From: Pyramidobacter piscolens W5455
GTDB taxonomy: Bacteria; Synergistota; Synergistia; Synergistales; Dethiosulfovibrionaceae
Assembly (NCBI RefSeq): GCF_000177335.1
Contig: NZ_ADFP01000123.1
Location: 1 to 48,399 of the forward strand
Length of the DNA stretch: 48,399 bases
Direction: 5' to 3'
Under the pieces are notes generated by a model. The model ran no database searches, had not been told where the DNA came from, and saw only the letters and a list, made by a program, of their open reading frames with translations. Every line of letters begins with the position of its first letter. The first letter of the stretch is position 1. The position numbers and the translations under genes are program-made. Shown one piece after another: positions 242 through 37,933 of this stretch.

Positions 242-256
242 TTCTTTGAACAAAAA

Positions 257-300
257 GAGGCCGAAGGCTGATGAAATCTGATTCATCAGCCTTCGGCCTC
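257..300. terminator. Bidirectional terminator after the first dipeptidase
   Basis: A perfect 19-bp stem (257-275 with 282-300) around a 6-base loop, flanked by A-rich sequence on the left, so transcripts from the minus strand end in U-rich sequence. It closes the operon that starts at 5413 on the minus strand. Confidence 0.85.
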
Positions 301-306
301 TTCGAA

Positions 307-361: not shown

Positions 362-2029
362 TTAGCGCCCGTTCTTCACGTCGTCGGCCATCGTGCCGCC
401 GAAATCGACGGCCTTGAGCCACGCGGGGTTGTAGCCGGGCTGCTTGATTTTGTTGTCTTCGACGTAGAAGGGCATTTGTCCGTACTTGGAGATCAGCTGC
501 GCGGCGAAGCCCCACCAATCCTTTTCCAGCGCCTTCATGTTGGTGGCGCAGTAGTTGGTCAGGAACGCCTTGGCCGCGGCGGGATCTTTGGCGTAGAGCT
601 CAAGCGCCAGTTTTTCGACGCCGGGCTGCGCGTCAAAATAACGCTGTTCGATCGTGGCCTTCTTGGCGCGGATCTCGGGGTACATCATGTCCCAGCGGTG
701 CTGCGCCCACTGCTGCACGAAGTTGAACGCCCACCAGGGGTTCTCCGTGTTGAAGTTGACGCGGTCGTTGTCGCCCCAGTTCTGCGGCAGTTCGGTGACG
801 CCGGCGTAGATGGGCGTGTAAACGGTCGTGTCGGGAGCGGCGAGGCCGAACCACAGCACGCCGCCGATCGCCGCGGGCAGGTCGGCGCGGGTCTGGCCGA
901 TGAAGCTGTACGAGCACTGAGGCACGGCGATAGCGCGTTCCCAGGAAGCCCATGCCTTGCGGTCTTCCATGTCGTGCTTGGGCTTCTGCGGACGGAAGCG
1001 GGCGGGCGAACCGAAGGGGCCGGCTGCCAGGCCTTTGGTCATGTCGTAGGGCGTTCCTTCGAGGTGATCGCTGTAGATCTTCTCCAGATCCTGAACGGTC
1101 AGCTTGTGATCGGGCTTGACCGAGAACGGATAATCCTGAAGGCCCGAGCCGGGCGTCAGTTTGAGGGAAGGCGCGACGATGTCGAAGGCCCGCCACTCGC
1201 GGCGCGAGCTGCCGAAGCTGTTCTTGGCCGCTTCGCCGTAGCTGCCGTTGTCGAAAATGTGTGAGAAGTTGAAGGGCTCGCCCTTCTTCCACCAGCCCAT
1301 TTCTTCGGCCAGCGCGGTGATGTTGGCGGAATACATGAAGTTGTCCTTGTCGTTGAAGTCGATCACGCCGAGGCGGGAACGGTTGGCGCCGACGAAGAAC
1401 TCGTCGTCGGGCACGCGGCGGGCCGCCCAGATGGCGCCCGGTTTGCCGCTGTCTTTCGTCCACAGCAGGCCGGCGCCGCAGATCTCGAAGACCCACAGTT
1501 CTTTGCCATCGCTGATGACCAGCCCCTCGCCGCCGTCGCCGTAGCCGTATTTTTCGGCCAGTTCGCCCATGACCTTGATCACTTCGCGGGCGGTCTTGCC
1601 GCGTTGCAGGCCGAGGGCCTCGAGGTTCTCGATGTAGAACAGGCCGCTGGCGCTCTGCACTTCGTCGCGGCCGGTCCACGTATGCTCGCCGATCATGACC
1701 TGATGCTCGTTGAGGAACGGATAGCCGATGTGGAAATACGTGTAGGTGCGCTCGGCCTGAGGGATCTGTCCGGCGACCGTCAGCGAACGGCCGGGACGGC
1801 TGTCCATGCAGGAGACGATCTTGACGTCGACCATTTCGCCGGGCTGGTGCTCGCCGCCGGGCACCACGCGCACGCGGGCGTCGTACCAGCTGTCGCAGGT
1901 ATGGGCGACGAGGATCGAACCGTCGGCGGTGGCCTTCGGGCCGACGCCCATGGGCGTGCAGGCGACCGACGCCGAAGCGGCGGCCAGCAGCGCGGCGCTA
2001 GCGAAAAGCGTTGCGGAAATGCGTTTCAT
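362..2029 (-). CDS. Secreted C69-family dipeptidase (copy 1)
   Basis: 555 aa, Ntn-hydrolase dipeptidase of peptidase family C69 (PepD family), which cleaves dipeptides from the N-terminal side. The signal peptide ends S-V-A directly before Cys24, and CTPMGVGPKATADGS is the family's nucleophile segment (Cys followed by a glycine-rich strand and DGS). The C-terminal block PGYxxxWLxxVDFGG is shared with copies at 7251 and 13156. Start at 2029 is supported by AGGAGG 8 bases upstream. It is the last gene of the minus-strand operon 5413-362, following the M14 hydrolase by 33 bases. Family assignment is firm; actual substrates are unknown. Confidence 0.93.
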   Translation of the reverse strand: MKRISATLFASAALLAAASASVACTPMGVGPKATADGSILVAHTCDSWYDARVRVVPGGEHQPGEMVDVKIVSCMDSRPGRSLTVAGQIPQAERTYTYFHIGYPFLNEHQVMIGEHTWTGRDEVQSASGLFYIENLEALGLQRGKTAREVIKVMGELAEKYGYGDGGEGLVISDGKELWVFEICGAGLLWTKDSGKPGAIWAARRVPDDEFFVGANRSRLGVIDFNDKDNFMYSANITALAEEMGWWKKGEPFNFSHIFDNGSYGEAAKNSFGSSRREWRAFDIVAPSLKLTPGSGLQDYPFSVKPDHKLTVQDLEKIYSDHLEGTPYDMTKGLAAGPFGSPARFRPQKPKHDMEDRKAWASWERAIAVPQCSYSFIGQTRADLPAAIGGVLWFGLAAPDTTVYTPIYAGVTELPQNWGDNDRVNFNTENPWWAFNFVQQWAQHRWDMMYPEIRAKKATIEQRYFDAQPGVEKLALELYAKDPAAAKAFLTNYCATNMKALEKDWWGFAAQLISKYGQMPFYVEDNKIKQPGYNPAWLKAVDFGGTMADDVKNGR

Positions 2030-2062
2030 GTTCTTTTCCTCCTTGTGAATTGGTTTTGGGGC

Positions 2063-3232
2063 CTAATCGTAGTACAGACGACCCTTGGGAGCTTCGGCGG
2101 GATTGTGGAACAGGAATCCCAGTCCTTTCTCCATGATTTCGCCGTAACCGGGAACGCCTTCGATCAGAATGGTCTTGTCGGGATGGATCATGTTGTTGAC
2201 TTCGATCAGCGTCAGCACGGTCTGTACGTGTCGCGCCACGCGTTTTTCCGCCGGCCAGCCGTTCTCGTCGATGGGCGAGTAGAGCAGATGGTGCTCGCCG
2301 GCCTTCATGACGAAGCGGTCTTTGCCCGACATCGCCAGCTCTTCGTCGGTGATGCCGCGGATACGGTCGAGCATTGGCTCGGCCACTTCGCACAGATAAG
2401 ACGTGGCGTCGGAGTGGTCGCCGATCTCGCGGTGCGACAGGCCATGCAGGGCCTTGGGCGAGAATTCCATGCCGATGGGAACGTCGAACATCGTCGAGGT
2501 CAGCATCATCGAGGTCATGGCGCCGACGTCCTGTCCTTTTTCGTGCACGACCATCGTGTTCTCGACGGGATATTCCAGCTCGGCTTCGTGGAAGTCCATC
2601 GTCATGTCGACGTGTTCTTGGCGGATCAGCTGCATGGCAGCGTAATTCGTGCGTTCCGTGAGCAGCCCGTTGGCGCGCCCAGGCCAGGCGCGGTTGGCGT
2701 TGCGGATGTCCATGTAGGCCAGGTTCTGGCCGCTGGGGTAGTGGATGTACACTTCGGGATCGGGCCACGAGTCGAGAGGATTGCTGGCGCGGTCTCCGAA
2801 GCGCCAGCGTTTGACGCCCCAGTCCGTTTTGACGTGAGTGAAGCGGGGATAGGCTTCGCCCAGACGCGTGAGCGTCGAGCCGCTGGTGTTCAGGCGGTCG
2901 ATGACGATCACCTGTCCCTGCGTGACCTTGACGTTTTCCGTGAAGGCCTGGGCCGACATGTTGGCGACCGGCTCTTCGGGATGCGTGCCGCCGATGATCA
3001 GAATCGTGCCGCCGGGCACGCCGCTGTCGAAGAAGTACACGTTGGCGTCGTTGACGGAGCCTTTGAGGCCGCCTTCGGGGTAATAATCGCTCAGCTTTTT
3101 GACCTGCGTCAGCGCCGCGCTGGGCACGACCGGTTCCTTGAATTCGCGGTGCTCCTTGAAGAGCATGCCCGCGGTGGCGGCCGCCGCTCCGGCGACGACG
3201 AGAGCAAGGCATTTTACGGCTTTCAGATTCAT
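2063..3232 (-). CDS. Succinylglutamate desuccinylase/aspartoacylase-like M14 metallohydrolase, exported
   Basis: 389 aa. The fold class is zinc carboxypeptidase M14 in its AstE/AspA branch, which removes acyl groups from N-acyl amino acids. Visible motifs: GGTHPEEP with His84 and Glu87 as the HxxE zinc pair, NRAWPGR in the substrate-binding region, and the MDFHEAELEYP segment that supplies the third ligand. Residues 1-25 form a hydrophobic export or anchor segment, which the cytoplasmic AstE and AspA enzymes lack, so this copy probably works in the periplasm. Start has GGAGGGGG just upstream. It lies 16 bases after the 54-aa membrane protein and before the C69 dipeptidase, suggesting that acylated amino acids or small peptides are processed here. 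The exact substrate is inferred, not shown. Confidence 0.8.
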   Translation of the reverse strand: MNLKAVKCLALVVAGAAAATAGMLFKEHREFKEPVVPSAALTQVKKLSDYYPEGGLKGSVNDANVYFFDSGVPGGTILIIGGTHPEEPVANMSAQAFTENVKVTQGQVIVIDRLNTSGSTLTRLGEAYPRFTHVKTDWGVKRWRFGDRASNPLDSWPDPEVYIHYPSGQNLAYMDIRNANRAWPGRANGLLTERTNYAAMQLIRQEHVDMTMDFHEAELEYPVENTMVVHEKGQDVGAMTSMMLTSTMFDVPIGMEFSPKALHGLSHREIGDHSDATSYLCEVAEPMLDRIRGITDEELAMSGKDRFVMKAGEHHLLYSPIDENGWPAEKRVARHVQTVLTLIEVNNMIHPDKTILIEGVPGYGEIMEKGLGFLFHNPAEAPKGRLYYD

Positions 3233-3248
3233 TGCGCGCCCCCTCCTT

Positions 3249-3413
3249 TTACTTGAGGCGCAGAAGGCGCAGTACGAAGGGCATCATGATGATGCTGTAA
3301 AGCACGGCTTTCTGCGGATCTTTCGTTTTGACGAAGTTCATGACCACCGCCAGCAGGAAGAACGCGGCGATCCCGTAATACAGCCACATAACGATATTGT
3401 TCAGCATGATCAT
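3249..3413 (-). CDS. 54-aa single-pass membrane protein
   Basis: Small ORF starting ATG ATC ATG CTG AAC, with GGAGG 9 bases ahead that overlaps the 3' end of the permease gene, and a TAA stop 16 bases before the M14 gene. The product begins MIMLNNIVMWLYYGIAAFF, has one clear hydrophobic span (about residues 5-26), a charged NFVKTKDPQK linker, and a second weakly hydrophobic stretch ending RLLRLK. No known family recognised. Its position between permease and hydrolase with tight spacing and a good ribosome site argues that it is real, perhaps a small accessory subunit of the permease. Confidence 0.7.
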   Translation of the reverse strand: MIMLNNIVMWLYYGIAAFFLLAVVMNFVKTKDPQKAVLYSIIMMPFVLRLLRLK

Positions 3414-3419
3414 GATCGA

Positions 3420-4754
3420 CTAACCTCCAATCACAGCGGCGAGCTCTTTGCTGTACACCATGCAGGCCGTGCAGACGGCGAGGATGAAGAGCATGGGGAC
3501 CAGCGCGGTCTTGACGAAACCGCCCCAGTAACTTCCCTTGTAGTCAAGCTCCATGACCGCCGCGCGCCCGACCACCGCGGTGGGCGGCAGACAGTCGCCG
3601 ACGGGCCACATCACCGACCAGGTGGAAAGCGACACGATCGGGTCGAGCCCGAGCATGTTGAACAGCATGATCAGCGGCACGCCGAACAGCGGCGCGACGG
3701 CGTACTGGAGCACGCCTTCGGAAAGCGGCAGGATGATCCACAGCGTGGCGAACAGCACCGTCAGCGGCAGCGTCACCACCATCAGCGACAGCAGCCCGCG
3801 GGCGCCGCTCAGCGCCAGCACCTGGATCAGCGTGCCGACGACGACCATCGCGCCGACCAGGCCGAGCAGGTTCTCGACCGTCTGACGGGCGACCGCGAAG
3901 ATGCGCAGGCGAATGGGGCTCAGCACGATGACGGAAAGAGCCGAGATCATGAACACCAGCGGCAGGCCGAGGACGGGGAAGTTGAAGGGGAACGCGCGTC
4001 CGGCGATGACCAGACCGACCAGCACCACGAAGGGAATGACGGCTTTCTGCCAATTCCATCCGGCCGGAGCTTCGGGCAGTTCCTTCAGCGCCTGCTCCAC
4101 GTCGATCGGTTTACCGCGCCCGGCCAGCCAGAAGGTGGAGAACAAAGCGCCGACGATCGACATCAGCGCCAGCGGCGCGCCGAATCCGACGTAGGGCATG
4201 TTCGCGCCGGCGGCCGCCATCATGGCCCACAGGTTGATGGGCGGGCAGGCTGCGCTCATGGCCGCGAGCAGGAAGATTAACGCCACGCGGCGGTCTTCGG
4301 AGACGCCCATAGTCATCAACACCGAACCGACCAGAGAGCCGACCGTCAGCACCGTCGTCGCTCCCGAACCGGTGATGGCGCCGGGAACCAGCATCAGGAC
4401 CGTAAGGAAGAGCAGGCAGACGAAACGGTGCGCGTGGAAGCTGCGCACGATGCAGCGCACGATGTAGGCCACGCCGCCCGACTCCTTGTAGAGCATCATG
4501 AAAAACGTGGCCGTCAGGAAGGTCAGGCACACGTCGAAGTAAGTGAAGGAACCTTCGACCACGTGACGGATCATTTCCACGAAGGGAAGGGGCGAGCGGG
4601 GGTCGACGCCCTTCGGAAGCAGCGCGTGCACCGCCAGCCCGACCAGGGCCGAGAGGAACATGGACAGCTCCGTGCTTATCTTCATTTTCTTGCCGATGGC
4701 GAACGCTACGACGACCGCAGCCAGCACCAGCGAAGAATGGACAAACATAGTCAT
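3420..4754 (-). CDS. DctM-like (IT superfamily) permease
   Basis: 444 aa, about 11-12 hydrophobic segments. Two repeats carry the family's helix-breaking motifs: ITGSGATT and ACPPINLWA in the first half, and VGDCLPPTAVVGR in the second. This resembles the large permease of TRAP transporters (DctM) and related ion-coupled carboxylate carriers. No DctQ-sized small subunit or DctP binding protein is adjacent; instead there is a DUF6305 protein upstream and a 54-aa membrane protein downstream. Start at 4754 chosen because AAGGA lies about 11 bases upstream; ATG 4748 or TTG 4760 are possible. Substrate unknown; an organic acid or N-acyl amino acid is plausible from the neighbouring hydrolases. Confidence 0.75.
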   Translation of the reverse strand: MTMFVHSSLVLAAVVVAFAIGKKMKISTELSMFLSALVGLAVHALLPKGVDPRSPLPFVEMIRHVVEGSFTYFDVCLTFLTATFFMMLYKESGGVAYIVRCIVRSFHAHRFVCLLFLTVLMLVPGAITGSGATTVLTVGSLVGSVLMTMGVSEDRRVALIFLLAAMSAACPPINLWAMMAAAGANMPYVGFGAPLALMSIVGALFSTFWLAGRGKPIDVEQALKELPEAPAGWNWQKAVIPFVVLVGLVIAGRAFPFNFPVLGLPLVFMISALSVIVLSPIRLRIFAVARQTVENLLGLVGAMVVVGTLIQVLALSGARGLLSLMVVTLPLTVLFATLWIILPLSEGVLQYAVAPLFGVPLIMLFNMLGLDPIVSLSTWSVMWPVGDCLPPTAVVGRAAVMELDYKGSYWGGFVKTALVPMLFILAVCTACMVYSKELAAVIGG

Positions 4755-4810
4755 TGACAAATACGTCCTTTCAACGGAAAAAATTTAAATGGAAAAGAGC
4801 GCGGAAAAAT

Positions 4811-4848
4811 AAGGCGTTCCAGCGGCGAACAGGCTGCGGGAACGCCTT
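4811..4848 (-). terminator. Hairpin between DUF6305 gene and permease
   Basis: AAGGCGTTCC pairs with GGAACGCCTT; on the minus strand it is followed by ATTTTT. It starts 5 bases after the DUF6305 stop. Such hairpins after binding-protein genes let the first gene be expressed above the membrane genes. Confidence 0.7.
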
Positions 4849-4852
4849 TGCC

Positions 4853-5413
4853 TTATTCGGCGGCCTTCAGCGCGGGGCCGATGGCCAGAGCGTCCTTGAC
4901 GACAAGCAGAGGCTTGTTGTGCTCCCGGGCATACTTGGTGAAGAAACCGTCGCTGTCGCTGTCGGTGACGACGAGAATCACGTCGGCGTCCTTCATGACA
5001 GCCTCGATGGAAGCGGCGTCGGAATTGTCGGTGCGGCGGGCCATGCCTTCGATGTGAGCTCCGATCACGGTCATGCCGAGCTTCTTGGCTTCGGCGATCA
5101 GTTCGGTGCAGCGGGCGATTTCGTTTTCAACGTTGGTACCGGCGGCGCCCATCCCTTTCATGCTGGTGCCGGAAGTGACGATCAGCGTCTTGGCGTTGGC
5201 GGCGGCCAGCTTGTCGGCGGTGAGCTTGTTGTCGTGATTGGCCGCAATCTTGGACTGCATGGCGGACATGTGCACCATAACGGCGCCGGGGCTCTGGCCG
5301 CAGGTGGTGACGATGAAGGGAGCGTTCAGCTTGGGGACTTCCACGGCGAACGCGAAGCTGCCCAGCACGCCGATGGCGAGCAGGGCGACAAAAACGGCGG
5401 ATAACTTTTTCAT
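4853..5413 (-). CDS. DUF6305-family secreted protein (copy 1)
   Basis: 186 aa with a signal peptide (residues 1-23, ending A-F-A). The mature part alternates strands and helices like a Rossmann-type fold: TLIVTSGTS, TELIAEAKKLGMTVIGAH, ARRTDNSD, ADVILVVTDSDSDGFFT. It shares the blocks GQS, EIxRCxExIAEAKK, RRxxNS and DG(F/Y)FT with the gene at 37934, so the two are paralogues; I recognise them as DUF6305. Function is not established. As the first gene of the operon, followed by a terminator-like hairpin and then a permease, a role as an abundant periplasmic partner of that permease is a reasonable inference. CGGGAGG supports the start. Confidence 0.75.
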   Translation of the reverse strand: MKKLSAVFVALLAIGVLGSFAFAVEVPKLNAPFIVTTCGQSPGAVMVHMSAMQSKIAANHDNKLTADKLAAANAKTLIVTSGTSMKGMGAAGTNVENEIARCTELIAEAKKLGMTVIGAHIEGMARRTDNSDAASIEAVMKDADVILVVTDSDSDGFFTKYAREHNKPLLVVKDALAIGPALKAAE

Positions 5414-5448: not shown

Positions 5449-5499
5449 CTGAACGATTCAGCCCGTTTTTTCCTGCGGAAGCGGCGCTGAATCGTTCAG
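5449..5499. terminator. Hairpin between second dipeptidase and DUF6305 gene
   Basis: CTGAACGATTCAGC pairs perfectly with GCTGAATCGTTCAG (14 bp) around a 23-base loop. It lies 15 bases after the dipeptidase stop at 5514. There is no good U-run after it on the minus strand, so it may protect the 3' end rather than stop transcription. Confidence 0.55.
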
Positions 5500-5513: not shown

Positions 5514-7115
5514 TTAACTCTTCTTGTTGTTGATGTACTTGGTGATCAGCGTTCTGTTCAGCTGATGCCAGGCTTTTTCGGCCTTGTCCATGCAGTCGAT
5601 GGTGAAATCGGTGACCATCTTGCCGGCGGCGGCGGGATCCTTCTTGTAGAGCTCGGCGCCTTCCTTGTCGATACGGGCCGTCTCCTCGAAGAAGCTCTTC
5701 TCGAGGGGGGCGCGCACGGCTCCGAGGTCCGCCATGGCCTCGGCGTAGCGTTTCAAGACGAGGTCGTCGGCGAGCATGAACGTCCACTGGGCGGATTCGG
5801 GCGTGTAGCTGTCGCGGTCAAACTGACGCCAGCTGGCTTTTGTGTCGGTGGCGCCGCAGTAGATGGGGACGTAGCAGGTGGTGTGGGGCGCGTCGAAGCC
5901 GAACCAGAGGATCGTGCTCAACGGCTTGGGCATGCCGGCGCGGGTCTGGGCGACGAAGCTGTAAGCGCAGTTGATCACCGAGACCGGGCGGCTGTAGTTC
6001 ATCTTCAGCAGCGCGCGCATGTCGCGGCTGGGGAACGGCGAAGCCAGAGGGCTTTTGACGAGCTTGCCGTCCTTGCGGATGAACCATTCGTCGGCGTCGT
6101 ACATATCGAACTGCGTGCCGTCGTGATGGCTGCGCAGCATCGCCTGCACGTCCTGCACGGAGAGTTTCCGGCTAGGCTTGACGGCGAAGGGGTAGGACGT
6201 CGCTTCCGCCAGCGGATCCCATTCGCGCTCGGGGTCGAGACGGCGGTACAGCGAGTAGAGACGGTTGCGGACCCAGTCGGACGACAGCGCCCAGCCGCCC
6301 GTGTAGGGCGCGTAGGCTTTCGCCCAGTTGAAGGGGACGCCGCTTGCGGGATCCCACCAGCCCATGTCGATGGCGAACTGACGGTAGTCCTTGGAGGCCA
6401 TGAAATTGTCCGTGTCTTCGGGGCGGACTTCCTGGATGCGGGCCACGTTGCAGGTGATCAGCACCATGTCGTCGGGGACGCGCTGGGCGACCCAGTACGC
6501 GCCGGGCTTGCCGCTTTCGGGGGTCCACATCATGCCGGAAGCGCGGATCTCGAACAGCCAGGCTTCCTTGCCGTCGGCGATGGTCAGGCTTTCGCCTTCG
6601 AAATCGCAGGAGCCGAGGAAGCCGTACTTTTCCGCCAGAGAGCCGATCAGGGCGATGGCTTCGCGGGCGGTTTTGGCGCGCTGCAGGGCGAGGACTTCGA
6701 GCTGCTCGATCGTCAGGATGGCGCGCGCGTCCGGGCGGAACGTCTTCATTTCCACCTTCTGGGCGAACGTGCTTTCGCCGATCGCCAGACCGTATTCGTT
6801 CATGAAGGGGTAACCGACGTGGAAATAACCGTAGGTTTCCGGGGCCTGGGGGATTTCGCCGATCCTCGTGAGTTCGGCGGATTCGTCGTTGGTGATGTTC
6901 CAGAAAACGGGCGTCATCTCGCCGTCGGCATGCTTGCCGCCGGGGATGAAGCGCACCCGCGCGTCGTAGAACGCGCCGTCCGCGGTATGGGAAGTGATGA
7001 CGGAACCGTCGGCGGAGGCTTTCGCTCCGACGACCACGTCGGTGCAGGCCGAAGCCGCTCCGGCGAGAAGCATGGCGCCAAGTACGCTGGAAATAACGGT
7101 GCGCTTTGCTCGCAT
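5514..7115 (-). CDS. Secreted C69-family dipeptidase (copy 2, divergent)
   Basis: 533 aa. The signal peptide ends A-S-A before Cys24, and CTDVVVGAKASADGS is the C69 nucleophile segment. Further family blocks: GEIPQAPETYGYFHVGYPFMN, the EQLEVLALQRAKTAREAI helix, and WFGFDAPHTTCYVPIYCG. It lacks the C-terminal PGYxxxWLxxVDFG tail found in copies 1, 3 and 4 and has different residues after Cys (TDVV against TPMG), so its specificity probably differs. CAAGGAGG sits 9 bases before the ATG. Located between copy 3 and the DUF6305 operon on the same strand, with hairpins on both sides. Confidence 0.92.
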   Translation of the reverse strand: MRAKRTVISSVLGAMLLAGAASACTDVVVGAKASADGSVITSHTADGAFYDARVRFIPGGKHADGEMTPVFWNITNDESAELTRIGEIPQAPETYGYFHVGYPFMNEYGLAIGESTFAQKVEMKTFRPDARAILTIEQLEVLALQRAKTAREAIALIGSLAEKYGFLGSCDFEGESLTIADGKEAWLFEIRASGMMWTPESGKPGAYWVAQRVPDDMVLITCNVARIQEVRPEDTDNFMASKDYRQFAIDMGWWDPASGVPFNWAKAYAPYTGGWALSSDWVRNRLYSLYRRLDPEREWDPLAEATSYPFAVKPSRKLSVQDVQAMLRSHHDGTQFDMYDADEWFIRKDGKLVKSPLASPFPSRDMRALLKMNYSRPVSVINCAYSFVAQTRAGMPKPLSTILWFGFDAPHTTCYVPIYCGATDTKASWRQFDRDSYTPESAQWTFMLADDLVLKRYAEAMADLGAVRAPLEKSFFEETARIDKEGAELYKKDPAAAGKMVTDFTIDCMDKAEKAWHQLNRTLITKYINNKKS

Positions 7116-7171
7116 GGTTCTTTACCTCCTTGTGATGGGTCAGACGTTCGAATTCTCCGTTTTACGAGACG

Positions 7172-7226
7172 AAAAGCCGGCGGAGCCCTTTTGCGCCGGG
7201 AGCGGAAAAGAGCCCCGCCGGCTTTT
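7172..7226 (-). terminator. Terminator after third dipeptidase
   Basis: AAAAGCCGGCGG pairs with CCGCCGGCTTTT across a GC-rich loop, so it is bidirectional in appearance. It follows the stop of the dipeptidase that ends at 7251 on the minus strand. Confidence 0.75.
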
Positions 7227-7250
7227 TAACGCTGGTGCGGAAGCGAAAAG

Positions 7251-8909
7251 TTATTTGCTGTTGGTTGCTTTCAGATCGCGTTCGGTCATGCCGCCGAAAT
7301 CGACCGCCTTGAGCCATTCCGTGGGGTAGCCGGGGGTCTTCTGCGATCCGTCGGGCTGCATGACGCCGCCGTCGCAGTATTTGCCGATCAGCTCGAAGGC
7401 GAAATCCCACCAGCCGTCGTTGACTTCGTTCATGGCCTTGTTGGTGTAGGCCGTCAGGTATTCGACCGCCTTCTTGGGATCCTTCTTGTACAGCTCGACG
7501 GCGTGGTCTTCGATCGTCTTCTGGTCGGCGAAGAACTTGTCCTCGTAGCTGGCCTTCTTGGCGCGGATCTCGGGATAGATGGCGTCCCAGCGGATCGTCG
7601 CCCAGTTGTTGACGAGGTTGAACGCCCACCAGGCGCTGTCGCGGTCGAACACGTGGCGCTTCGTCTCGCTCCACGCCTTGGGCACGGAGGTCACGCCGCA
7701 GTAAATGGGCACGTAAACGGTGGTGTCGGGGGAATCCTCGCCGAACCACAGCACGCCGCCCACGGCGTCGGGCATGTCGGCGCGGCTCTGCGAGACGAAA
7801 CTGTAGGAGCAGCGGAACAGAGCGATGGGACGCTCCCAATCGTCGCCTTTGCGATCCTCGGGACGCACGTCCTTGGGCGTCTGCCAGCGGCTGGGGCAGC
7901 CAAAGGGACCGGCGGCCAGACCCTTGGTGAGGTCGTAGTCGGTGCCTTCGAGGTGGTCGCTGTAAACGTCCATGATGTCCTTGACGGAGAGTTTCTTGTC
8001 GGGCTTGACGGAGAAGGGGTACATTTCCCACTTGGCCAGCACGGGGAACTTCTGCGAAGGAGCGACCAGGTTCAAGGCTCTCCACTCGCGGCGTGCGGCG
8101 TAGTAGGCGTAGCCGTAAGGCTCGGGATTGAAGATGGCGGAGAAGTCGAACGGTTCGCCCTGCTTCCACCAGCCCATGGCCTCGGGCAGCTTGGTGATGT
8201 CGGTGGAGTGCATGGTGTTTTCGGTGTCGTTCAGATCGATGACGCCGAGGCGCGAACGGTTGGCGCCGACGAACACTTCATCGTCGGGAAGGCGCTTGGC
8301 CGCCCAGTGGGCGCCGGGATTGCCGGAATCCTTGTTCCACAGCCCGCCGCCGCAGACTTCGAAGACCCAGCATTCCTTGGGATCGCCGATGATCAGCGTC
8401 TCGCCGCCGTCGGCGTAACCGTACTTTTCGGCCAGCGCGCCCATGACCTTGATCGCTTCGCGGGCCGTCTTGGCGCGGGCCAGACCGAGCGCTTCGAGAT
8501 TCTCGATGTACATCAGTCCTTCGGTGGAAGCCAGTTCGTCGCGGCCGCTCCAGGTGAACTCGCCCATCATCAGCTGCTGATCGTTCATGAAGGGATAGCC
8601 GATCTGGAAGTAGGTGTAGGTGTGCGCGGCCTGCGGGATCTCGCCGACTTTGCGCAGCGGCTTGTTGGGGCGGGTGTCGACGCACATGACGTTGTAGATG
8701 TCGACCATTTCGCCTTCTTTGTGGTCGCCGCCGGGAATGATCTTGATGCGGTTGTCGTACCAGCCGTCGCAGGTATGGCTCACCATGACGGAGCCGTCCG
8801 CCGACGCTTTGGCCCCCACGCCCATGGGCGTGCAGGCCATCGACGCCGCCGCCGAGAAGAGCAGGGCGGCGCTGGCGAAGGCCGCTGCCGAGAAACGTTT
8901 CATTTCCAT
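7251..8909 (-). CDS. Secreted C69-family dipeptidase (copy 3)
   Basis: 552 aa, closely similar to copies 1 and 4. The signal peptide ends S-M-A before Cys26, then CTPMGVGAKASADGS. Shared blocks include HTCDGWYDNRI, EIPQAAHTYTYFQIGYPF, WAAKRLPDDEVFVGANRSR, LEGTDYDLTKGLAAGPFG and the tail PGYPTEWLKAVDFGG. ATG 8909 has GGAGG 9 bases upstream; ATG 8903 is a less well spaced alternative. It is followed by its own terminator at 7172-7226, so it is probably a single-gene transcript. Role: releasing amino acids from dipeptides in the periplasm for fermentation (inferred from the family and the signal peptide). Confidence 0.93.
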   Translation of the reverse strand: MEMKRFSAAAFASAALLFSAAASMACTPMGVGAKASADGSVMVSHTCDGWYDNRIKIIPGGDHKEGEMVDIYNVMCVDTRPNKPLRKVGEIPQAAHTYTYFQIGYPFMNDQQLMMGEFTWSGRDELASTEGLMYIENLEALGLARAKTAREAIKVMGALAEKYGYADGGETLIIGDPKECWVFEVCGGGLWNKDSGNPGAHWAAKRLPDDEVFVGANRSRLGVIDLNDTENTMHSTDITKLPEAMGWWKQGEPFDFSAIFNPEPYGYAYYAARREWRALNLVAPSQKFPVLAKWEMYPFSVKPDKKLSVKDIMDVYSDHLEGTDYDLTKGLAAGPFGCPSRWQTPKDVRPEDRKGDDWERPIALFRCSYSFVSQSRADMPDAVGGVLWFGEDSPDTTVYVPIYCGVTSVPKAWSETKRHVFDRDSAWWAFNLVNNWATIRWDAIYPEIRAKKASYEDKFFADQKTIEDHAVELYKKDPKKAVEYLTAYTNKAMNEVNDGWWDFAFELIGKYCDGGVMQPDGSQKTPGYPTEWLKAVDFGGMTERDLKATNSK

Positions 8910-10246: not shown

Positions 10247-12304
10247 ATGCGCAAGATGGCGATATCGATCATCCGAACGAGTGACGGTGCTGAGATGACG
10301 AGAATTTCCCGTGCGGCGTCGCGAACGACGCTGTTGATTTTTTGCCTGATGCAGATTCTGTGGAGCGGAAAACCCGCCGCTGGGGTTGAAGCGGCGCCCG
10401 ACATGGTGATCGGTGCGGGCGAAGGGCGGACAATACGCGTGCTCTGCATGGAGACGCAGCCTCCGTATCTTCAGATCGACTCTCGCGGCAGGATGCGGGG
10501 CGTGTACGTCGATCTGCTCGAACTGATCGCCCAGAAGGAGAAGATGCGCTTTCTCCTTTCGCCGCGCGGCGCGGGCGACGTGAGGAACTCCATGTACCAG
10601 ATCCAGCCGGAGATCGTGCTCGGCGCGCTGTACCCCGTGGATCCCGAGCAGGAACGATTCGGTTATCTCCCCGTGCGCAATCTCGACCCGATCGATCCCG
10701 GCATGGCCGAGAACGTGGCGCGGATCCGCGAGGACTTCCCCGAAAACGAGCGGGATTCGCTGTGTTTCGCCCTGCCGTTCCTGTGGGAGTCGTCGACCGT
10801 GTTTCTGCCGAGCGGGCGGACCGACGGGCTGAGCGAGCTGCGCGGAAAAAGGATCTGCGTCGTCGCCGGCGCGCCGGAAGAGAAATTTTTGACGAATCTG
10901 GGATTCAAAAAGGAGATCATGCACTGTCCGTCCGCGGCCGACGGGCTGCGCATCCTGGCGTCGGGCATGTGCGACGCCTTCGTCTGCGAGACGTTCCAGG
11001 GGCGCTATCAGCTGGCGCAGACGCGGCGGTACCGCTATGCCGTCGACGCGCGCAAGCTGCCGCTGCAGTCTTACGAGCGCGGGCTGGTGGTGCTGCACGG
11101 CGACGCGGCGATGGCGCTCAAGATCGGCCACGCGCTGGCGGAGATGAAGCTCGACGGGCGCTACAACGCCGTGATGAACAAATGGCTGGGGCAATACGAC
11201 GAATTCGTGCTCAGTCCGCAGATCCTCATGCAGGCGGGCTGCGTCGTCCTGCTGTTCATCGCCGCGATCCTCTTCTGGAACCACGAACTGAAGCGGAAGA
11301 TCCGCATCGCCGCCAGCGAGCGCGACCGGATCCTCGATTTTGTCTGCGACGGGATCCTCGCCGTCGATCCTTCGGGGCGGATCACCATGCTGAACCGCAT
11401 CGCCAAACTGCTGCTGGACCTGAAGGACAGCGACGTCGGCAAGCTCGCCGACGAACTGATCCCCGGGCTCGACATCCAGAAAGTGATCGGCGACTGTCAG
11501 CCCGTGTACAATCTCGAGCAGAACCTGCGCGAGGCGCTGGTGTCGTGCAACAAGGTGCCGGTGTTCATCAACGGGAACTGTTACGGCGCCATCGTCACGC
11601 TGCGCGATCTTTCGGAACTGCAGGCGATGGCGGAGGAGATGACGGGCGTGAAGATGTACGTGGAATCGCTGCGCATCCACAATCACGAGTTCATGAACAC
11701 GCTCCAGGCCATTTCCGGCCTGATCCAGCTGAGGCAGTACGACAGGGCGGTGGCCTACATCGCCGCGGAAACGGATTCGAGCCAGTCGGCGCATTCGTTC
11801 ATGACGGAACGGATCAAGAACGCCGCCGTCTGCGGCGTGCTGATGGGCAAGGCCGGGCTGTGCCGCGAGCAGGGCATCAATTTTGTTCTCGAAGCCGACA
11901 GCTCCTGCGCCGATCACAGCGCCGAGATCAGCGAGCGGTCGCTGGTGATCGTCGTCGGCAATCTGATGCAGAACGCGGTGGAGGCGCTTCAGGAAAAGGG
12001 CGTCGACGAACGCGCCGAGATCCGTTTTTCCATGTACGACGAATCGGGCTACATCTTCCTGAGCGTGCGCGACAACGCCGGTCTGATGAACGCCGGCATC
12101 GCGGAGCGTCTTTTCGACAAGGGCTTCAGCACGAAGAAAAAAGGACGGCCTTCGGGCTTTGGACTTTATACGATCAGCAATATCGTAACGTCGCTTGGCG
12201 GCGACATTTCAGTGGATTTTGCGGAGGGGGAGTACACGGATTTCACCGTGACGATCCCTCTTCCGAAGAAACAGGAGGAGCTCGTTTATGCCGGAAGCTA
12301 TTGA
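10247..12304 (+). CDS. CitA/DcuS-type sensor histidine kinase with a solute-binding sensor domain
   Basis: 685 aa, inner-membrane kinase. Order: N-terminal membrane segment or signal (about 22-40), a periplasmic domain (about 60-315) resembling family-3 solute-binding proteins (IRVLCMETQPPYLQ, GVYVDLLELIAQ, FLWESSTVFLP, LRGKRICVVAG), a second membrane span (about 326-343), a PAS domain (about 355-460), the HNHEFMNTLQ phospho-acceptor box with His near residue 480, and an ATPase domain with NLMQNAVEAL (about 570) and SGFGLYTI (about 634). The H-box and Spo0B-like layout are those of the CitA/DcuS group, but the usual periplasmic PAS sensor is replaced by a binding-protein-like domain. The start is uncertain: ATG 10247 or ATG 10295, neither with a strong ribosome site. 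Overlaps the response regulator gene by 17 bases. Confidence 0.88.
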   Translation: MRKMAISIIRTSDGAEMTRISRAASRTTLLIFCLMQILWSGKPAAGVEAAPDMVIGAGEGRTIRVLCMETQPPYLQIDSRGRMRGVYVDLLELIAQKEKMRFLLSPRGAGDVRNSMYQIQPEIVLGALYPVDPEQERFGYLPVRNLDPIDPGMAENVARIREDFPENERDSLCFALPFLWESSTVFLPSGRTDGLSELRGKRICVVAGAPEEKFLTNLGFKKEIMHCPSAADGLRILASGMCDAFVCETFQGRYQLAQTRRYRYAVDARKLPLQSYERGLVVLHGDAAMALKIGHALAEMKLDGRYNAVMNKWLGQYDEFVLSPQILMQAGCVVLLFIAAILFWNHELKRKIRIAASERDRILDFVCDGILAVDPSGRITMLNRIAKLLLDLKDSDVGKLADELIPGLDIQKVIGDCQPVYNLEQNLREALVSCNKVPVFINGNCYGAIVTLRDLSELQAMAEEMTGVKMYVESLRIHNHEFMNTLQAISGLIQLRQYDRAVAYIAAETDSSQSAHSFMTERIKNAAVCGVLMGKAGLCREQGINFVLEADSSCADHSAEISERSLVIVVGNLMQNAVEALQEKGVDERAEIRFSMYDESGYIFLSVRDNAGLMNAGIAERLFDKGFSTKKKGRPSGFGLYTISNIVTSLGGDISVDFAEGEYTDFTVTIPLPKKQEELVYAGSY

Positions 12305-12974
12305 TGTGCTCATTGTCGAAGACGATCCGATGGTGGCGGCGATCCACCGCCAGTTTATCGGCGCCGTCTCGGGATTTATCGTCGCGGGAGTGGTTTCCAG
12401 CGGCAAAGACGCGCTGGAATTCTTGCAGCGGCATCCCGTTCGCCTCGTGATCCTGGACGTTTTCCTGCCGGGCATGGACGGCGTGGCCACGCTGCAGAAG
12501 ATCCGCGAGATGAACCGCACCGTCGGCGTCATCGTCGTGTCGGCGTCGCGCGATACCAACACGATCAACGCCGTGCTCAAGGCGGGGGCTTTCGATTACG
12601 TGATCAAGCCCTTCGTCTTCGAGCGCATCCAGACGTCGCTGCGTTCGTTCCAGCAGCTGGAAAACCGCCTCAACCGCGGCGCCGACCAGATCGACCAGAA
12701 GGAACTGGATCGACTGCTGCAGGTCCAACAGAAAGAGACATCTACCAACGATCTGCCCAAGGGGCTGAACCCGCAGACGCTGCAGCAGGTGAAGAACCTC
12801 CTCGGGCACGCCGCCTCGCCGCTGTCTTCGGTCGAAACGGCGCAGGCCCTGAAGATCTCGCGCATCACGGCGCGCCGCTATCTGGAGTATCTTGTCGCCG
12901 CCGGCGAGGCGACGCTGGAACTGGAATATCAGAAAGTCGGCCGCCCCACGAACCGCTACGCGCTGAGGAAATAA
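12288..12974 (+). CDS. CitB/DcuR-type response regulator
   Basis: 228 aa. An N-terminal receiver has the acidic pair Asp12/Asp13, the phospho-acceptor Asp57 in LVILDVFLPG, a Ser/Thr in VIVVSAS and Lys in YVIKPF. The C-terminal half (about 165-228) is a winged-helix-type DNA-binding region with SSVETAQALKISRITARRYLEY, typical of the CitB/DcuR group. The start codon lies inside the kinase gene's 3' end, with AGGAGG upstream, so the two are translationally coupled. Such pairs usually control uptake and fermentation of di- and tricarboxylates; here the target could be the acid-metabolism block at 17520-24721, but no operator has been identified. Confidence 0.92.
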   Translation: MPEAIDVLIVEDDPMVAAIHRQFIGAVSGFIVAGVVSSGKDALEFLQRHPVRLVILDVFLPGMDGVATLQKIREMNRTVGVIVVSASRDTNTINAVLKAGAFDYVIKPFVFERIQTSLRSFQQLENRLNRGADQIDQKELDRLLQVQQKETSTNDLPKGLNPQTLQQVKNLLGHAASPLSSVETAQALKISRITARRYLEYLVAAGEATLELEYQKVGRPTNRYALRK

Positions 12975-13155: not shown

Positions 13156-14850
13156 TTACAGGGAGATGCCCGAGAACGAGCCGCTGAGCTTTGGGCCGCC
13201 CAGCTTTTTCAGGTCGCGTTCGGACGTCGCGCCGAAATCGACCCGTTCCAGCCATTCGGCGGGATAGCCGGGCGTCGTCATCGCCCCCTGCGGCGTCATC
13301 ACGCCGCCGTCGTGGTATTTCCCGATCAGCTCGAAGGCGAAGCTCCACCAGCCGTCGCACAGCTCGTCCATCTGCGCGCAGGTGTGTTCGGTGACGCGCT
13401 GCACGGCCTCTTCGCCGCGGCCGCGGGCGCAGAGGTCGGCGATCTCGTTCTCGAAGCCCGTCTGCGCGGCGAGGAAACGCTCTTCGTACCGGGCGCGACG
13501 GGCGCGGATATCCTGATACATGGCGTCCCATCTCAGACAGGCCCAGTTGTTCACCAGCGTAAACGCCCACCAGGCGCAGCTGCGGTCGAAGACGTGGCTC
13601 TTGCCCTCGCGCCACGGCGCGGGCACCTCCAGCACGCCGCTGTAAACGGGGACGTAGACGGTCGTGTCCGGGGCGCCGAGACCGAACCACAGCACGCCGC
13701 CCACGGGATCGGGCAGCCAGCCGCGGCACTGGGCCACGAAACTGTACGCGCAGCGGTAGATGGCGATGGATCGCTCCCAGTCGTCGGTTTTGCGCCCCTC
13801 GGGGCGGCTCGCGGCGGGCGTGAACCAGCGCACGGGGCAGCCGAAGGGACCGGCCGCCAGCCCCTTGGTGAGGTCGTAGTCGGTGCCTTCCAGATGGTCG
13901 CTGTACACGTCCATCAGATCCTGCACGGTCAGTTTTTTGTCGGGAACGACGCTGAACGGATAGGCTTCGTGGCAGTCGATGACGGGGAATCCCCGCGACG
14001 GCGCGACGAGATTCAGCGCGCGCCATTCGCGCCGCGAGGCGTAGAATGCGTAACCATACGGTTCGGGGTTGAAGATCTTGGAAAAGTCGAACGGTTCGCC
14101 CGGCTTCCACCAATCCTGTTTTTCGGCGTAGCCGGTCAGCTCCGAGCCGAGCATGAGCGTATCGCTTTCGGCCAGTTCGATCACGCCGAGGCGCGATCGG
14201 TTGGCCCCCACGAAGAAGCCGTCGTCGGGGATGCGCCGCGCCGCCCAGTGCGCGCCGGGGCGTCCGCAGCCGGGCTCCCAGTCCGTTCCGGCGCCGACGA
14301 TTTCGAAGACCCAGGCTTCGTTGGGGTCGCCGACGACCAGAGTCTCGCCGCCATCGGCGTAGCCGTGTTCCTCGGCGAACTGCCCCATCAGGCGCACGGC
14401 GTCGCGCGCGGTCGCGCAGCGGGCCAGCGCCAGCGCTTCGAGATTCTCGATGTAAAAGACGCCCTGCGGCGAGGCCAGCTCGGGACGCCCCGTCCAGGTG
14501 AACTCGCCGATGATGACCTGCTTCTCGTTCATGAACGGGTAGGCGATCTGGAAATAGGTGTAGGTGCGCGCCGCCTGAGGCACGGAGCCGACCTTGCGCA
14601 GCGGCTCGGCGGGGTGGTTGGCGTGACACATGACATTGTAAATGTCGACCGTCTCACCGGGCGCGTGCTCGCCGCCGCGGATCACGCGGATGCGCTGGTC
14701 GTACCAGCCGTCGCAGCTGTGCGTGACCAGCACCGAACCGTCGGCGGTGGCGTTGCGTCCCGCGCCCATGGTCGTGCAGGCCCGCGCCGCAGAGGCGTGC
14801 GCCGCCAGTGCGGCCGCCGTTAAAAGGATGAAAAGAACGAAGAAGGACAT
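13156..14850 (-). CDS. Secreted C69-family dipeptidase (copy 4)
   Basis: 564 aa from the preferred start. The signal peptide ends A-R-A before Cys25, followed by CTTMGAGRNATADGS. Family blocks match copies 1 and 3: HSCDGWYDQRIR, VPQAARTYTYFQIAYPFMN, LEGTDYDLTKGLAAGPFG and the PGYPAEWLERVDFG tail. The start at 14850 is chosen because GGGAGG lies about 8 bases upstream and a normal signal peptide follows; an in-frame upstream ATG at 14895 would bury it. Divergent from fprA, with about 230 bases between. Confidence 0.93.
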   Translation of the reverse strand: MSFFVLFILLTAAALAAHASAARACTTMGAGRNATADGSVLVTHSCDGWYDQRIRVIRGGEHAPGETVDIYNVMCHANHPAEPLRKVGSVPQAARTYTYFQIAYPFMNEKQVIIGEFTWTGRPELASPQGVFYIENLEALALARCATARDAVRLMGQFAEEHGYADGGETLVVGDPNEAWVFEIVGAGTDWEPGCGRPGAHWAARRIPDDGFFVGANRSRLGVIELAESDTLMLGSELTGYAEKQDWWKPGEPFDFSKIFNPEPYGYAFYASRREWRALNLVAPSRGFPVIDCHEAYPFSVVPDKKLTVQDLMDVYSDHLEGTDYDLTKGLAAGPFGCPVRWFTPAASRPEGRKTDDWERSIAIYRCAYSFVAQCRGWLPDPVGGVLWFGLGAPDTTVYVPVYSGVLEVPAPWREGKSHVFDRSCAWWAFTLVNNWACLRWDAMYQDIRARRARYEERFLAAQTGFENEIADLCARGRGEEAVQRVTEHTCAQMDELCDGWWSFAFELIGKYHDGGVMTPQGAMTTPGYPAEWLERVDFGATSERDLKKLGGPKLSGSFSGISL

Positions 14851-14977
14851 CGCAAAAACCTCCCTGCAAAAATGTGATCGTATCCTGCCGTCCATTATAA
14901 CCTTTCGCCGTTTTTTTGCGAAAACGCTCCGGGCGCCCGCTGCGGACGCGCGTGAGACGGAAAGACGTTCGCTCGCC

Positions 14978-17519: not shown

Positions 17520-18818
17520 TTAGATGATCTGCAGCAGCACGCTGGCGAGGATCAGCATGAAGGCGCCGCCGATGCGGGAGGAAATTTGCGCGAAGGGCAT
17601 CAGTTCCATGCGGTTGGCTGCGGAAAGAACGGCCACGTCGCCCGTGCCGCCCATGTTGGCCATGCAGAGGCCGGCGGTGATGGCCGACTCGACGGGATAG
17701 AAGCCGACGAGGCGTCCGACCAGAGCCGAACCGATGATGGCGCCGAGCACCGTCACGCCGACGAGCAGCAGATACTGTCCGGAGAAGGCGGAAACGATTT
17801 GGCCGAGATCGGTGTAGGCCACGCCGATGCCGACGAGGAGCGTCGCCGTCAGATTCTTCATGATGAACTGGAACCACTGGTAGCAACAGATCTCGTAGTA
17901 CTGGGGGAGAATGCCCAGCGCCTTGACGACGGCGACGGAGATGATCATCCAGGCGTAGCTGTGGATCTTGGGAATGAAGAAAGCGATGATGCGTCCCCAG
18001 GCGAAAAATGCCGTCGCCAGCAGCAGGCCGACGCCCATGACTGTCAGGCTGACGGCATCGCGCTTTTTGAGGAATTCTTCGTCGGCTTTGATGGTGTCGT
18101 CGGCCCCCTTGGCGATCAGCAGGTCGCCGTTGCCGGTGAGGCTGGGGAAGGTCTTGCCGAGTTTGCTCAGCAGTCCGCCGGCGACGATCGCCATGGCGTT
18201 GCCGAGGGCGACGGCGGGGATCATGATGTTGATGATGTCCTCGGGTTTCTGCGCCAGCGTTTCGCCGAAGATCTTCGACAGCGGTACGGCGCCGGCGCCC
18301 ATGCCGCCGCCCATGATCGGCACGGCGATGTAAAGGATGGCCTGCTTGGCGCCGTAACCGGTCAGTTCGCCGACGAGGCCGGCGAGACCAAGCGCCACGA
18401 CGACGCCGCCGACGATGGCGGGCAGGTAGCGGATGGCGGCGCGGATCAGCAGATCGCGGTTCATGCCGAGGATCGAGCCGCAGATCAGCGCGGCGATGTA
18501 GAAGTCAAGAAAGCCCTCGCCCTTCATGAAGTTGGTGACGATCTTGACGGTCGCGTCGGGAATGAGATGATAGTAACAGAGTGCCGCCATGCCGAAAATG
18601 ATGACGATGGCGCCGCCGCCGAGGTAGGTATTGACGATCGGGCAACGGTTGCCGATCTCGTTGAGAACGGCGCCGACGACGATCATGAACGGAAAGGCGC
18701 CGATCATGCCTTTGGGCAGCACGCCCATATACGTCGCCACAAGGACGATGGCCGCGAAGACGGCGAAGATCTGCCAGGGCATGTTGAACAGCCTGAGGCT
18801 TTTGCTTTCTTCAGACAT
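17520..18818 (-). CDS. 2-hydroxycarboxylate transporter (CitS/MaeN/CimH-type)
   Basis: 432 aa, integral membrane, with about 11 hydrophobic spans. The two re-entrant loop motifs of the 2HCT family are visible: [13 protein letters not shown] in the first half and [18 protein letters not shown] in the second. The family carries citrate, malate or lactate with sodium or protons, or exchanges substrate for product. The gene lies 100 bases downstream of malic enzyme on the same strand, so malate uptake coupled to its decarboxylation is the likely job. GGAGG is about 9 bases before ATG. Confidence 0.93.
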
Positions 18819-18918
18819 TTGTGGAATTCCTCCTCAGAACGGAAAATTTTTCGCGGCGCGGCGTCCGCTCGGCTCGAGCGACGCCGCGCCGGTACAGCCA
18901 TAGGGGATGGAAAAGTTT

Positions 18919-20097: not shown

Positions 20098-20134
20098 CGA
20101 TAACTCCTCCTTTTGAGTGTGGAGCGGAGATTGC

Positions 20135-20231
20135 TGTAAACGAAACGTTGTAATTTTTTCTATTATACATGAAACTCTTCGGAAATGCCGTATTTTTATT
20201 TTTTAACGACTGACGAAAAATATTGTTTACA
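20135..20231. promoter_or_regulatory. Divergent control region with mirrored TGTAAAC/GTTTACA elements
   Basis: In the 226-base gap between malic enzyme (-) and citD (+), TGTAAAC at 20135-20141 is mirrored by GTTTACA at 20225-20231. Each lies beside one of the two promoters. They could be half-sites for the nearby GntR regulator, but this rests only on position and symmetry. Confidence 0.35.
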
Positions 20232-20253
20232 GACGGAATGGCCGTGCTAGAAT
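20226..20253 (+). promoter_or_regulatory. Promoter of the lyase-hydratase operon
   Basis: TTTACA, a 16-base spacer and TAGAAT, about 70 bases before the citD start. The -35 overlaps the GTTTACA element. Confidence 0.6.
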
Positions 20254-20323
20254 AAAAACGATTCAGATGATCTATCGGCGCCTAAGAAAGGCGATTTCGT
20301 CCTTTGACAGGGAGGGATTCCAT

Positions 20324-22881: not shown

Positions 22882-22952
22882 TTTTGCGCGGGGCAATCCT
22901 TTTGCCGGAGCGGTCCCGCATTGGCGAAAACGCCGAAGGGGGAGATGGCAAG

Positions 22953-24203: not shown

Positions 24204-24217
24204 TCAGGAGGCCTCCC

Positions 24218-37747: not shown

Positions 37748-37933
37748 TTCTGAAAACCTCCGTTACAGAAAATTTAAAATTGTCCGCGCCTCTGTGCTAT
37801 AATCGCAAAAGGGCGGACTTTTTTGCGCCATGGGCAGAAATATATTTCAAAAGCTAGCACGCGGCATCGCCGCTGTCAAATGAAAAGAATGCATAAGTTC
37901 GGTTGCCGTAACGCTGAGGAGATATTTTCAAAG

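Follow-up and report, generated by a model that had tools for sequence, protein, structure and literature searches.

The window, which is the whole stretch of 48,399 nucleotides of the gut bacterium Pyramidobacter piscolens W5455 that was analysed, carries near its beginning a cassette of five genes. All five predicted ORFs were confirmed on the minus strand and are close-packed, with intergenic gaps of 92, 6, 16 and 33 bp in the order DUF6305 gene, permease, mini-protein, hydrolase and C69 gene. This agrees with an earlier sequence-only reading, which had described a tightly spaced five-gene group on one strand ending at a strong terminator. The terminator is a hairpin of 20 pairs followed by a T tail; terminator-like sites across the region numbered 10 against 9.9 by chance, and this hairpin was much the longest of them. 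The five genes stand as described, but the limit set at five does not, since the same-strand block goes on upstream with two further C69 genes. The features are as follows.

255..302, minus strand: terminator closing the cassette (20-pair stem, then T tail)
362..2029, minus strand: exported C69 (Ntn) dipeptidase family member with Cys right behind the signal peptide (PF03577, PDB 5iau)
2063..3232, minus strand: AstE/AspA-like zinc amidohydrolase, predicted membrane-anchored and probably extracytoplasmic (invariant residues, profile matches, N-terminal hydrophobic segment)
3249..3413, minus strand: 54-aa two-helix membrane protein, here called MINI (alignment, presence in all fully flanked cassettes)
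3420..4760, minus strand: DctM-like IT-superfamily permease (TTG start, or ATG at 4754)
4811..4848, minus strand: terminator-like hairpin between the DUF6305 gene and the permease gene (tail ATTTTT)
4853..5413, minus strand: DUF6305 protein with a signal peptide and one alpha/beta (flavodoxin-like) domain, the proposed binding component (PF19823, AF2 model, invariant residues)
5449..5499, no strand: perfect 14-bp inverted repeat upstream of DUF6305, read from the sequence
5514..7115, minus strand: second exported C69, upstream of DUF6305 (PF03577, E 1.4e-63)
7251..8909, minus strand: third exported C69, upstream of DUF6305 (PF03577, E 1.3e-66)
10247..12304, plus strand: DcuS/DpiB-like histidine kinase with an extracellular SBP_bac_3 domain, a candidate sensor (Pfam)
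12288..12974, plus strand: DcuR/DpiA-like response regulator paired with the kinase (Pfam)
13156-14895: fourth C69 gene of the window

Elsewhere in the Synergistaceae, relatives of the SBP_bac_3 kinase adjoin the cassette; this conserved neighbour, HKa, is present in L047, L048 and L052. The presence of a kinase with this sensor domain nearby counts in favour of an importer.

The window copy of the DUF6305 protein belongs to the Pfam family PF19823 (E 1.4e-48, 164.9 bits against a cut-off of 25). Residues T36, G39, Q40, G82, S84, E98, R101, G123, R127 and D155 are invariant in the alignment. The AF2 model (pLDDT 90.5) predicts one domain of flavodoxin-like fold rather than a Venus flytrap. A structure search against the PDB gave no significant match (best E 1.7e-3, TM < 0.5), and a search of the PDB by sequence gave short or spurious matches only. 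SGNH hydrolases and cutinases are among the weak fold matches. Assignment to the SGNH hydrolases was rejected: the residue after Q40 varies (S/G/A/N) and is not a conserved serine, therefore there is no SGNH-type nucleophile at this position. The sequence-only reading had proposed that DUF6305 replaces the usual binding protein. The gene is tied to a carrier by gene order and its product is exported or lipid-anchored; in many Clostridia it is of the lipoprotein type, on a long linker. A hairpin lies between DUF6305 and the permease with z below -2 in 35 of the 52 cassettes whose gap is at least 35 bp, as would be expected of an overproduced DUF6305. Position, hairpin and lipoprotein tethers thus fit the proposal, whereas the predicted fold does not. 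Because that fold is a single flavodoxin-like domain, we put the binding-protein role forward as a candidate function that we infer. A single domain, unlike the substrate-binding proteins of TRAP, TTT and TAXI systems, counts against an importer.

The permease matches Pfam DctM with E 0.028, below the curated cut-off. DctM was matched by 26 of 37 permease relatives (best 6.5e-13), and CitMHS, DcuC and Na_H_antiporter match as well. The profile search found the isethionate TRAP protein DctMQ (9pym, E 7.6e-4). In Foldseek, the AF2 model (pLDDT 93) resembled IseQM (TMq 0.69), SiaQM (0.68) and ArsB (0.68). The permease is thus predicted from its model to have the elevator-type fold of the IT superfamily, which includes TRAP. 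As the sequence-only reading had noted, the usual TRAP partners are absent, and this holds for all five cassettes of the Pyramidobacter genome. The eight DctP and eight DctQ genes of this genome lie outside the cassettes and share contigs with each other; the nearest DctP gene is about 19 kb from a cassette (on C79), and only the 54-aa protein adjoins the permease. Membership of TRAP by DctP and DctQ was rejected, neither subunit being in the cassettes. The mini membrane protein pointed out earlier is present, and can now be described as having two hydrophobic helices and a conserved C-terminus, PFVLRxLRxK. It had no solid match in Pfam or NCBIfam, and its assignment to a known family was rejected accordingly.

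The sequence-only reading had labelled the first hydrolase M14. A hydrolase gene is indeed present, but the enzyme belongs to the AstE/AspA branch. The match of the window copy to Pfam AstE_AspA is below the curated cut-off (E 0.022), and relatives reach 4e-11. Profile matches to 2qj8 and to DoeB (6twl) range from E 4e-11 to 1e-8. In 33 AstE-like sequences HxxE (H84, E87), H215, N178/R181 and E282 are invariant, a pattern of HxxE...H zinc site, carboxylate Arg and catalytic Glu by which the protein is a predicted AstE/AspA-like zinc amidohydrolase. The cassette's C69 protein (362-2029) matches PF03577 (E 7e-63) and the dipeptidase 5iau (E 3e-22). Its predicted nucleophile, read directly from the window sequences, is the Cys of ...SVACTPMG... 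after the signal peptide. Export or anchor signals were found on the cassette parts that had been said to be exported.

An earlier suggestion was to count how often DUF6305 and this permease family co-occur, and the two families proved to be bound together across phyla. In 188 Synergistota genomes, 113/136 DUF6305 genes lie at most 300 bp upstream of a permease gene on the same strand, and 124/133 permeases have DUF6305 within 3 kb. The two families occur together in 69 of these genomes and DUF6305 alone in none. DUF6305, permease, MINI and the AstE-like gene are present in 55/55 cassettes with enough flank, as is an exported Ntn hydrolase, either C69 or gamma-glutamyltransferase (GGT). Their hosts are Synergistota, Clostridia, Atribacterota, Thermotogota, Bipolaricaulota and Halanaerobiales. 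GGT takes the place of C69 in one branch, and the Pyramidobacter genome has three cassettes with C69 and two with GGT. The genes are grouped far beyond chance. A literature search on DUF6305, TIGR04332 and related terms found nothing on this module and, among the papers covered, none naming DUF6305, in line with the earlier statement that no description of such a system was known. The five genes are thus one copy of a conserved and apparently undescribed transport-and-digestion module found in several phyla.

PgsB, PgsC and TIGR04332 of the poly-gamma-glutamate system occur no more than 8 kb away from about half of the cassettes. TIGR04332 is within this distance in 22/44 and 5/11 fully flanked cassettes, and half of the cassettes with full flanks lack Pgs genes over that distance. 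Matches beside the cassette reach E 7e-111 for PgsB (TIGR04012), 8e-38 for PgsC and 3e-111 for TIGR04332, and these neighbours recur in Clostridia, Bipolaricaulota, Halanaerobiales and Synergistota. In the genome co-occurrence behind this link, 63 genomes had both, 6 and 9 had one only and 110 had neither (Fisher P 9e-33, a value that ignores kinship). In L117 and L118 a single operon runs DUF6305-permease-MINI-AstE-GGT-PgsB-PgsC-TIGR04332-kinase-regulator. In Halanaerobium, PgsB and PgsC adjoining the cassette score above the cut-off, and a natural DUF6305-AstE fusion adjoins pgsBC. An Asp/Glu racemase gene adjoins the cassette copy on C64. No Pgs genes lie beside the window cassette. The genome's own pgsBC-TIGR04332 genes are on other contigs, with two TIGR04332 loci against five cassettes and a LytR-CpsA-Psr gene upstream of pgsBC. 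The PgsB homologues of Synergistota, including that of this genome, are below the curated cut-off; this and the separate contigs count against an importer. Synthesis genes beside uptake genes are also odd for an importer unless the polymer is recycled.

We tentatively propose, at a little under an even chance, that the module is a conserved TRAP-like elevator importer with its own outer hydrolases, DUF6305 as binding component and a glutamate or gamma-glutamyl ligand. The exported Ntn hydrolase (C69 here, GGT elsewhere) and the AstE/AspA-like enzyme would act outside the membrane on amides of the glutamate type, most likely cleaving gamma-glutamyl peptides or poly-gamma-glutamate fragments. 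DUF6305, overproduced and secreted or lipid-anchored, would take the released carboxylate via invariant Q, S, K, R, R and D motifs and pass it to the DctM-like permease, and in such a complex the 54-aa two-helix protein would stand in for DctQ. The carrier would then import the ligand, probably driven by an ion gradient. Because PgsB, PgsC and TIGR04332 are frequent neighbours, the module may in many hosts serve a poly-gamma-glutamate system as its arm for recycling or processing.

Other explanations should be considered. Synergistota ferment amino acids, and the module may serve general scavenging, in which amino acids released from peptides by C69 and GGT are deacylated by the AstE-like enzyme and the permease takes up amino acids or dipeptides; the Pgs link would then be secondary. 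The dipeptidases among the structural relatives of C69, the several C69 genes in the window and the lack of adjoining Pgs genes there are consistent with this idea. However, it leaves the recurrent PgsB-PgsC-TIGR04332 neighbours, GGT and the Asp/Glu racemase unexplained, and we regard it as unlikely. Uptake and processing of N-acyl amino acids, as the sequence-only reading had supposed, would suit the AstE/AspA/DoeB-type relatives, which are N-acyl amino acid deacylases. This substrate is highly improbable, since no acyl-amino-acid genes recur nearby and polyglutamate and gamma-glutamyl genes recur instead.

It is also conceivable that the module serves the export and assembly of a polyglutamate capsule. 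In place of PgsA/PgsE-type partners, the permease, MINI and DUF6305 would then move or hand on polymer or precursors; the AstE-like enzyme, together with GGT or C69, would trim or attach the polymer in a CapD-like manner. The joint operons of L117 and L118 and the LytR-CpsA-Psr gene argue for this, and the mini-protein resembles PgsE/CapE in size. We consider it quite unlikely, as the permease is predicted to fold like elevator carriers of small molecules, Pyramidobacter has five cassettes but just two TIGR04332 loci, which lie on other contigs, and half of the fully flanked cassettes lack Pgs genes within 8 kb. Distinctly doubtful, too, is the idea that DUF6305 is an enzyme or a hydrolase regulator beside a permease that, like other IT carriers, needs no binding protein. 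Its single domain with strictly conserved polar residues, the fusion to AstE and the weak matches to SGNH hydrolases and cutinases point in this direction, whereas the variable residue after Q40 and the position, hairpin and lipoprotein linkers, which are binding-protein traits, point away from it.

The module shares with TRAP systems (DctPQM, SiaPQM, IseQM) an exported partner encoded upstream and a small membrane protein adjoining the permease; its large permease is predicted to have the same fold and to be of a distantly related sequence family. It differs in having neither a DctP or TAXI protein nor a four-helix DctQ, but a small single-domain DUF6305 protein and a membrane protein of about 54 residues. 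With PgsBCA, CapBCADE and the capBCA loci with a TIGR04332-type CapA, some of its operons share homologues of PgsB, PgsC and TIGR04332 and GGT-family enzymes. To our knowledge, no known poly-gamma-glutamate system has a DctM-like permease, DUF6305, this mini-protein family or the AstE-like enzyme. PghP-type polyglutamate hydrolases are zinc enzymes of carboxypeptidase-like fold that act on gamma-glutamyl bonds (PMC4497714); the AstE-like enzyme is likened to them by class and fold, not by sequence, and differs in its AstE/AspA branch and membrane anchor.

TAXI-GltS is an elevator-type secondary carrier for glutamate that acquired a binding protein outside TRAP and TTT (PMC12344293). It is a precedent for a binding-protein-dependent secondary carrier, with glutamate as substrate, whereas the present module has another carrier family, a non-flytrap partner, hydrolases and a mini-protein. 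The authors of that work ask why binding proteins so rarely pair with secondary carriers; according to them, more such classes would put the elevator mechanism to the test as the explanation (PMC12344293). The module described here is a candidate for such a class, one whose binding partner is unusual. It offers a role open to testing for DUF6305, as well as for a membrane microprotein that is conserved but outside Pfam and NCBIfam, and it suggests that in anaerobes polyglutamate synthesis is accompanied by a dedicated set for uptake and hydrolysis.

The window is contig C123 of the 2.56-Mb draft assembly; upstream of the cassette are two further C69 genes on the same strand, and a kinase gene is nearby.

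4853-5413, minus: DUF6305 (PF19823), first of the five genes
3420-4760, minus: DctM-like permease, second gene, after a gap of 92 bp
3249-3413, minus: ~54-aa two-helix membrane mini-protein (MINI), third gene, after a gap of 6 bp
2063-3232, minus: AstE/AspA-like hydrolase, fourth gene, after a gap of 16 bp
362-2029, minus: C69 dipeptidase, fifth gene, after a gap of 33 bp
5514-7115, minus: exported C69, second copy
7251-8909, minus: exported C69, third copy
10247-12974: kinase with an extracellular SBP_bac_3 domain

At its 3' end the cassette has a hairpin of 20 pairs followed by a T tail; the earlier description of five genes on one strand closed by a strong terminator holds. Amino-acid sensing would fit the nearby kinase. 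Pyramidobacter sp. C12-8 has a permease with 100% identity to the one in the window. Elsewhere in the window (17520-24721), genes for a 2-hydroxycarboxylate carrier and malic enzyme (minus strand) face CitE/CitF citrate lyase-type genes and an aconitase-type small subunit gene.

We searched 188 Synergistota genomes with the Pfam model for DUF6305 and with a permease-family profile built here (A2), whose scores split into two clear groups; thus, family members are separable from ordinary TRAP permeases. DUF6305 was above the cut-off in 69 genomes, the permease in 71, and both in 69. The permease was located within 300 bp downstream of DUF6305 on the same strand for 113 of 136 DUF6305 copies, and a further 11 copies were within 3 kb of a permease. 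The sequence-only reading had named scarcity of DUF6305 near such permeases as one refutation; given these counts, it therefore survives that test. The remaining copies are mostly at contig ends or belong to a solitary paralogue confined to Pyramidobacter, the genus to which copies without a permease are almost confined. The window carries such a solitary, divergent gene, a sixth DUF6305 gene (37823-38563, plus strand), which is divergently oriented to the genes of a zinc ABC transporter (ZnuA, 36803-37747). Of the conserved residues, GQ, S, E, R, RR and D are retained in it, and the KGxGAAG loop is missing.

A permease-based scan of 84,980 genomes gave 58 loci in Synergistota, Clostridia, Atribacterota, Thermotogota, Bipolaricaulota and Halanaerobiales, counts that are no census outside Synergistota, since such a scan is biased towards the subfamily of the window copy and many of the loci come from metagenome bins. 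The order DUF6305, permease, MINI, AstE-like hydrolase is kept in nearly all 58. All four were present in 55/55 cassettes with at least 3 kb of flank on both sides, each also with C69 or gamma-glutamyltransferase (GGT) within 4.5 kb. In the permease tree, most GGT copies group in a single deep branch, separate from the C69 copies; long branches leave the deep joins unsure. P. piscolens W5455 itself has five cassettes, three with C69 (C123, C120 and C61) and two with GGT (C64 and C79). In the C79 copy (locus L104), a malonate decarboxylase alpha subunit gene (6510-8234; PF16957, E 7e-274) lies between DUF6305 and the permease; in the C61 copy (locus L103, 4478-10441), DUF6305 is behind the hydrolase, and the place before the permease is taken by a glycerate kinase gene. 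The observation of the cassette is thus confirmed and is much stronger than was visible from sequence alone.

The permease belongs to the IT superfamily. In the PDB, its profile had a single match, over the full length, to the isethionate TRAP permease (E 7.6e-4), and its confidently predicted model (pLDDT 93) matched IseQM, SiaQM, ArsB and NaCT about equally (TM 0.67-0.69). The cassettes of this genome contain no DctP or DctQ; the eight of each are elsewhere, near one another, in agreement with the earlier remark that the permease lacks its normal TRAP partners. In the scheme proposed below the cassette would work like a TRAP transporter, but it lacks DctP and DctQ, two of the features that define a TRAP transporter, so it is not classed as one. 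The nearest precedent in kind is the TAXI-GltS system (PMC12344293). No description of the module was found in a literature search that had most subscription journals outside its reach.

Sequence signals mark DUF6305 as exported, with a lipobox and a long Ala/Pro/Glu-rich linker in many Clostridia. The structure predicted for it (pLDDT 90.5) consists of one alpha/beta domain, for which a structure search gave no significant match, and the invariant residues of DUF6305 are grouped in four motifs: TxxGQ, GxSxKGxGAAG, HxxGxxRR and xDGxF. MINI contains two hydrophobic segments; its C-terminus (...PFVLRxLRxK) hardly varies, and it had no convincing match among curated families. The AstE/AspA-like hydrolase has, by sequence, an N-terminal membrane anchor, a complete zinc site and a carboxylate-binding pair.

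In the window, a terminator-like hairpin (4811-4848, tail ATTTTT) separates DUF6305 from the permease, and the corresponding gap (at least 35 bp) folds markedly better than mononucleotide-shuffled sequence in 35/52 cassettes. A hairpin between genes is the usual route to an excess of binding protein over its permease. The DUF6305-permease hairpin may thus be an indirect hint that DUF6305 is made in excess.

Clustering of flanking genes gave PgsB (TIGR04012), PgsC (TIGR04011), TIGR04332 ('poly-gamma-glutamate system protein'), GGT (TIGR00066) and a two-component system as the commonest real neighbours. The typical Clostridial order is C69-DUF6305-permease-MINI-AstE-PgsB-PgsC-TIGR04332, and two Synergistota operons (L117 and L118) read DUF6305-permease-MINI-AstE-GGT-PgsB-PgsC-TIGR04332-kinase-regulator; PgsB homologues of Synergistota score below the curated cut-off. 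In the two subfamilies, 22/44 and 5/11 of the fully flanked cassettes had TIGR04332 within 8 kb. Of the 188 genomes, 63 had both TIGR04332 and DUF6305, 9 had TIGR04332 alone, 6 had DUF6305 alone and 110 had neither (Fisher P 9e-33, kinship ignored), and in single-contig genomes 12/18 TIGR04332 copies had a DUF6305 gene within 10 kb. In Halanaerobium, a natural DUF6305-AstE fusion gene directly follows pgsBC and TIGR04332 (Halanaerobiales loci L090, 5997-7205, and L091, 6056-7282). CapA of a capBCA locus carries the annotation 'poly-gamma-glutamate system protein' (PMC5362203), which suggests that TIGR04332 covers this type of CapA. In P. piscolens W5455, pgsBC-TIGR04332 is on C21, and C44 carries another TIGR04332 gene, neither beside a cassette; an Asp/Glu racemase gene adjoins the C64 copy. 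The C21 genes (locus L114, 6491-10359, pgsB-like, pgsC and TIGR04332) follow a LytR-CpsA-Psr gene at the contig end, a possible sign that a polymer is attached to the envelope. The Clostridial module is often flanked by a gene for a lipoprotein that has a PrsA-like peptidylprolyl isomerase domain (L098, 12774-14009, and 12 further Clostridial loci).

Both C69 and GGT belong to the Ntn hydrolases, and they replace each other between cassettes, which suggests that the outer amidase steps they carry out are equivalent. Amides adjacent to a carboxylate are the substrates of the AstE/AspA class. In the simplest scheme using all parts, gamma-glutamyl material would be cut by the outer hydrolases to free a glutamate-type carboxylate, which DUF6305 would gather and the permease with MINI would bring into the cell. 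The acyl amino acids proposed from sequence alone should give way to gamma-glutamyl or glutamate-type compounds as the substrate. The other part of that proposal, an uptake system with DUF6305 as the partner, is plausible, and we infer its ligand, direction and complex.
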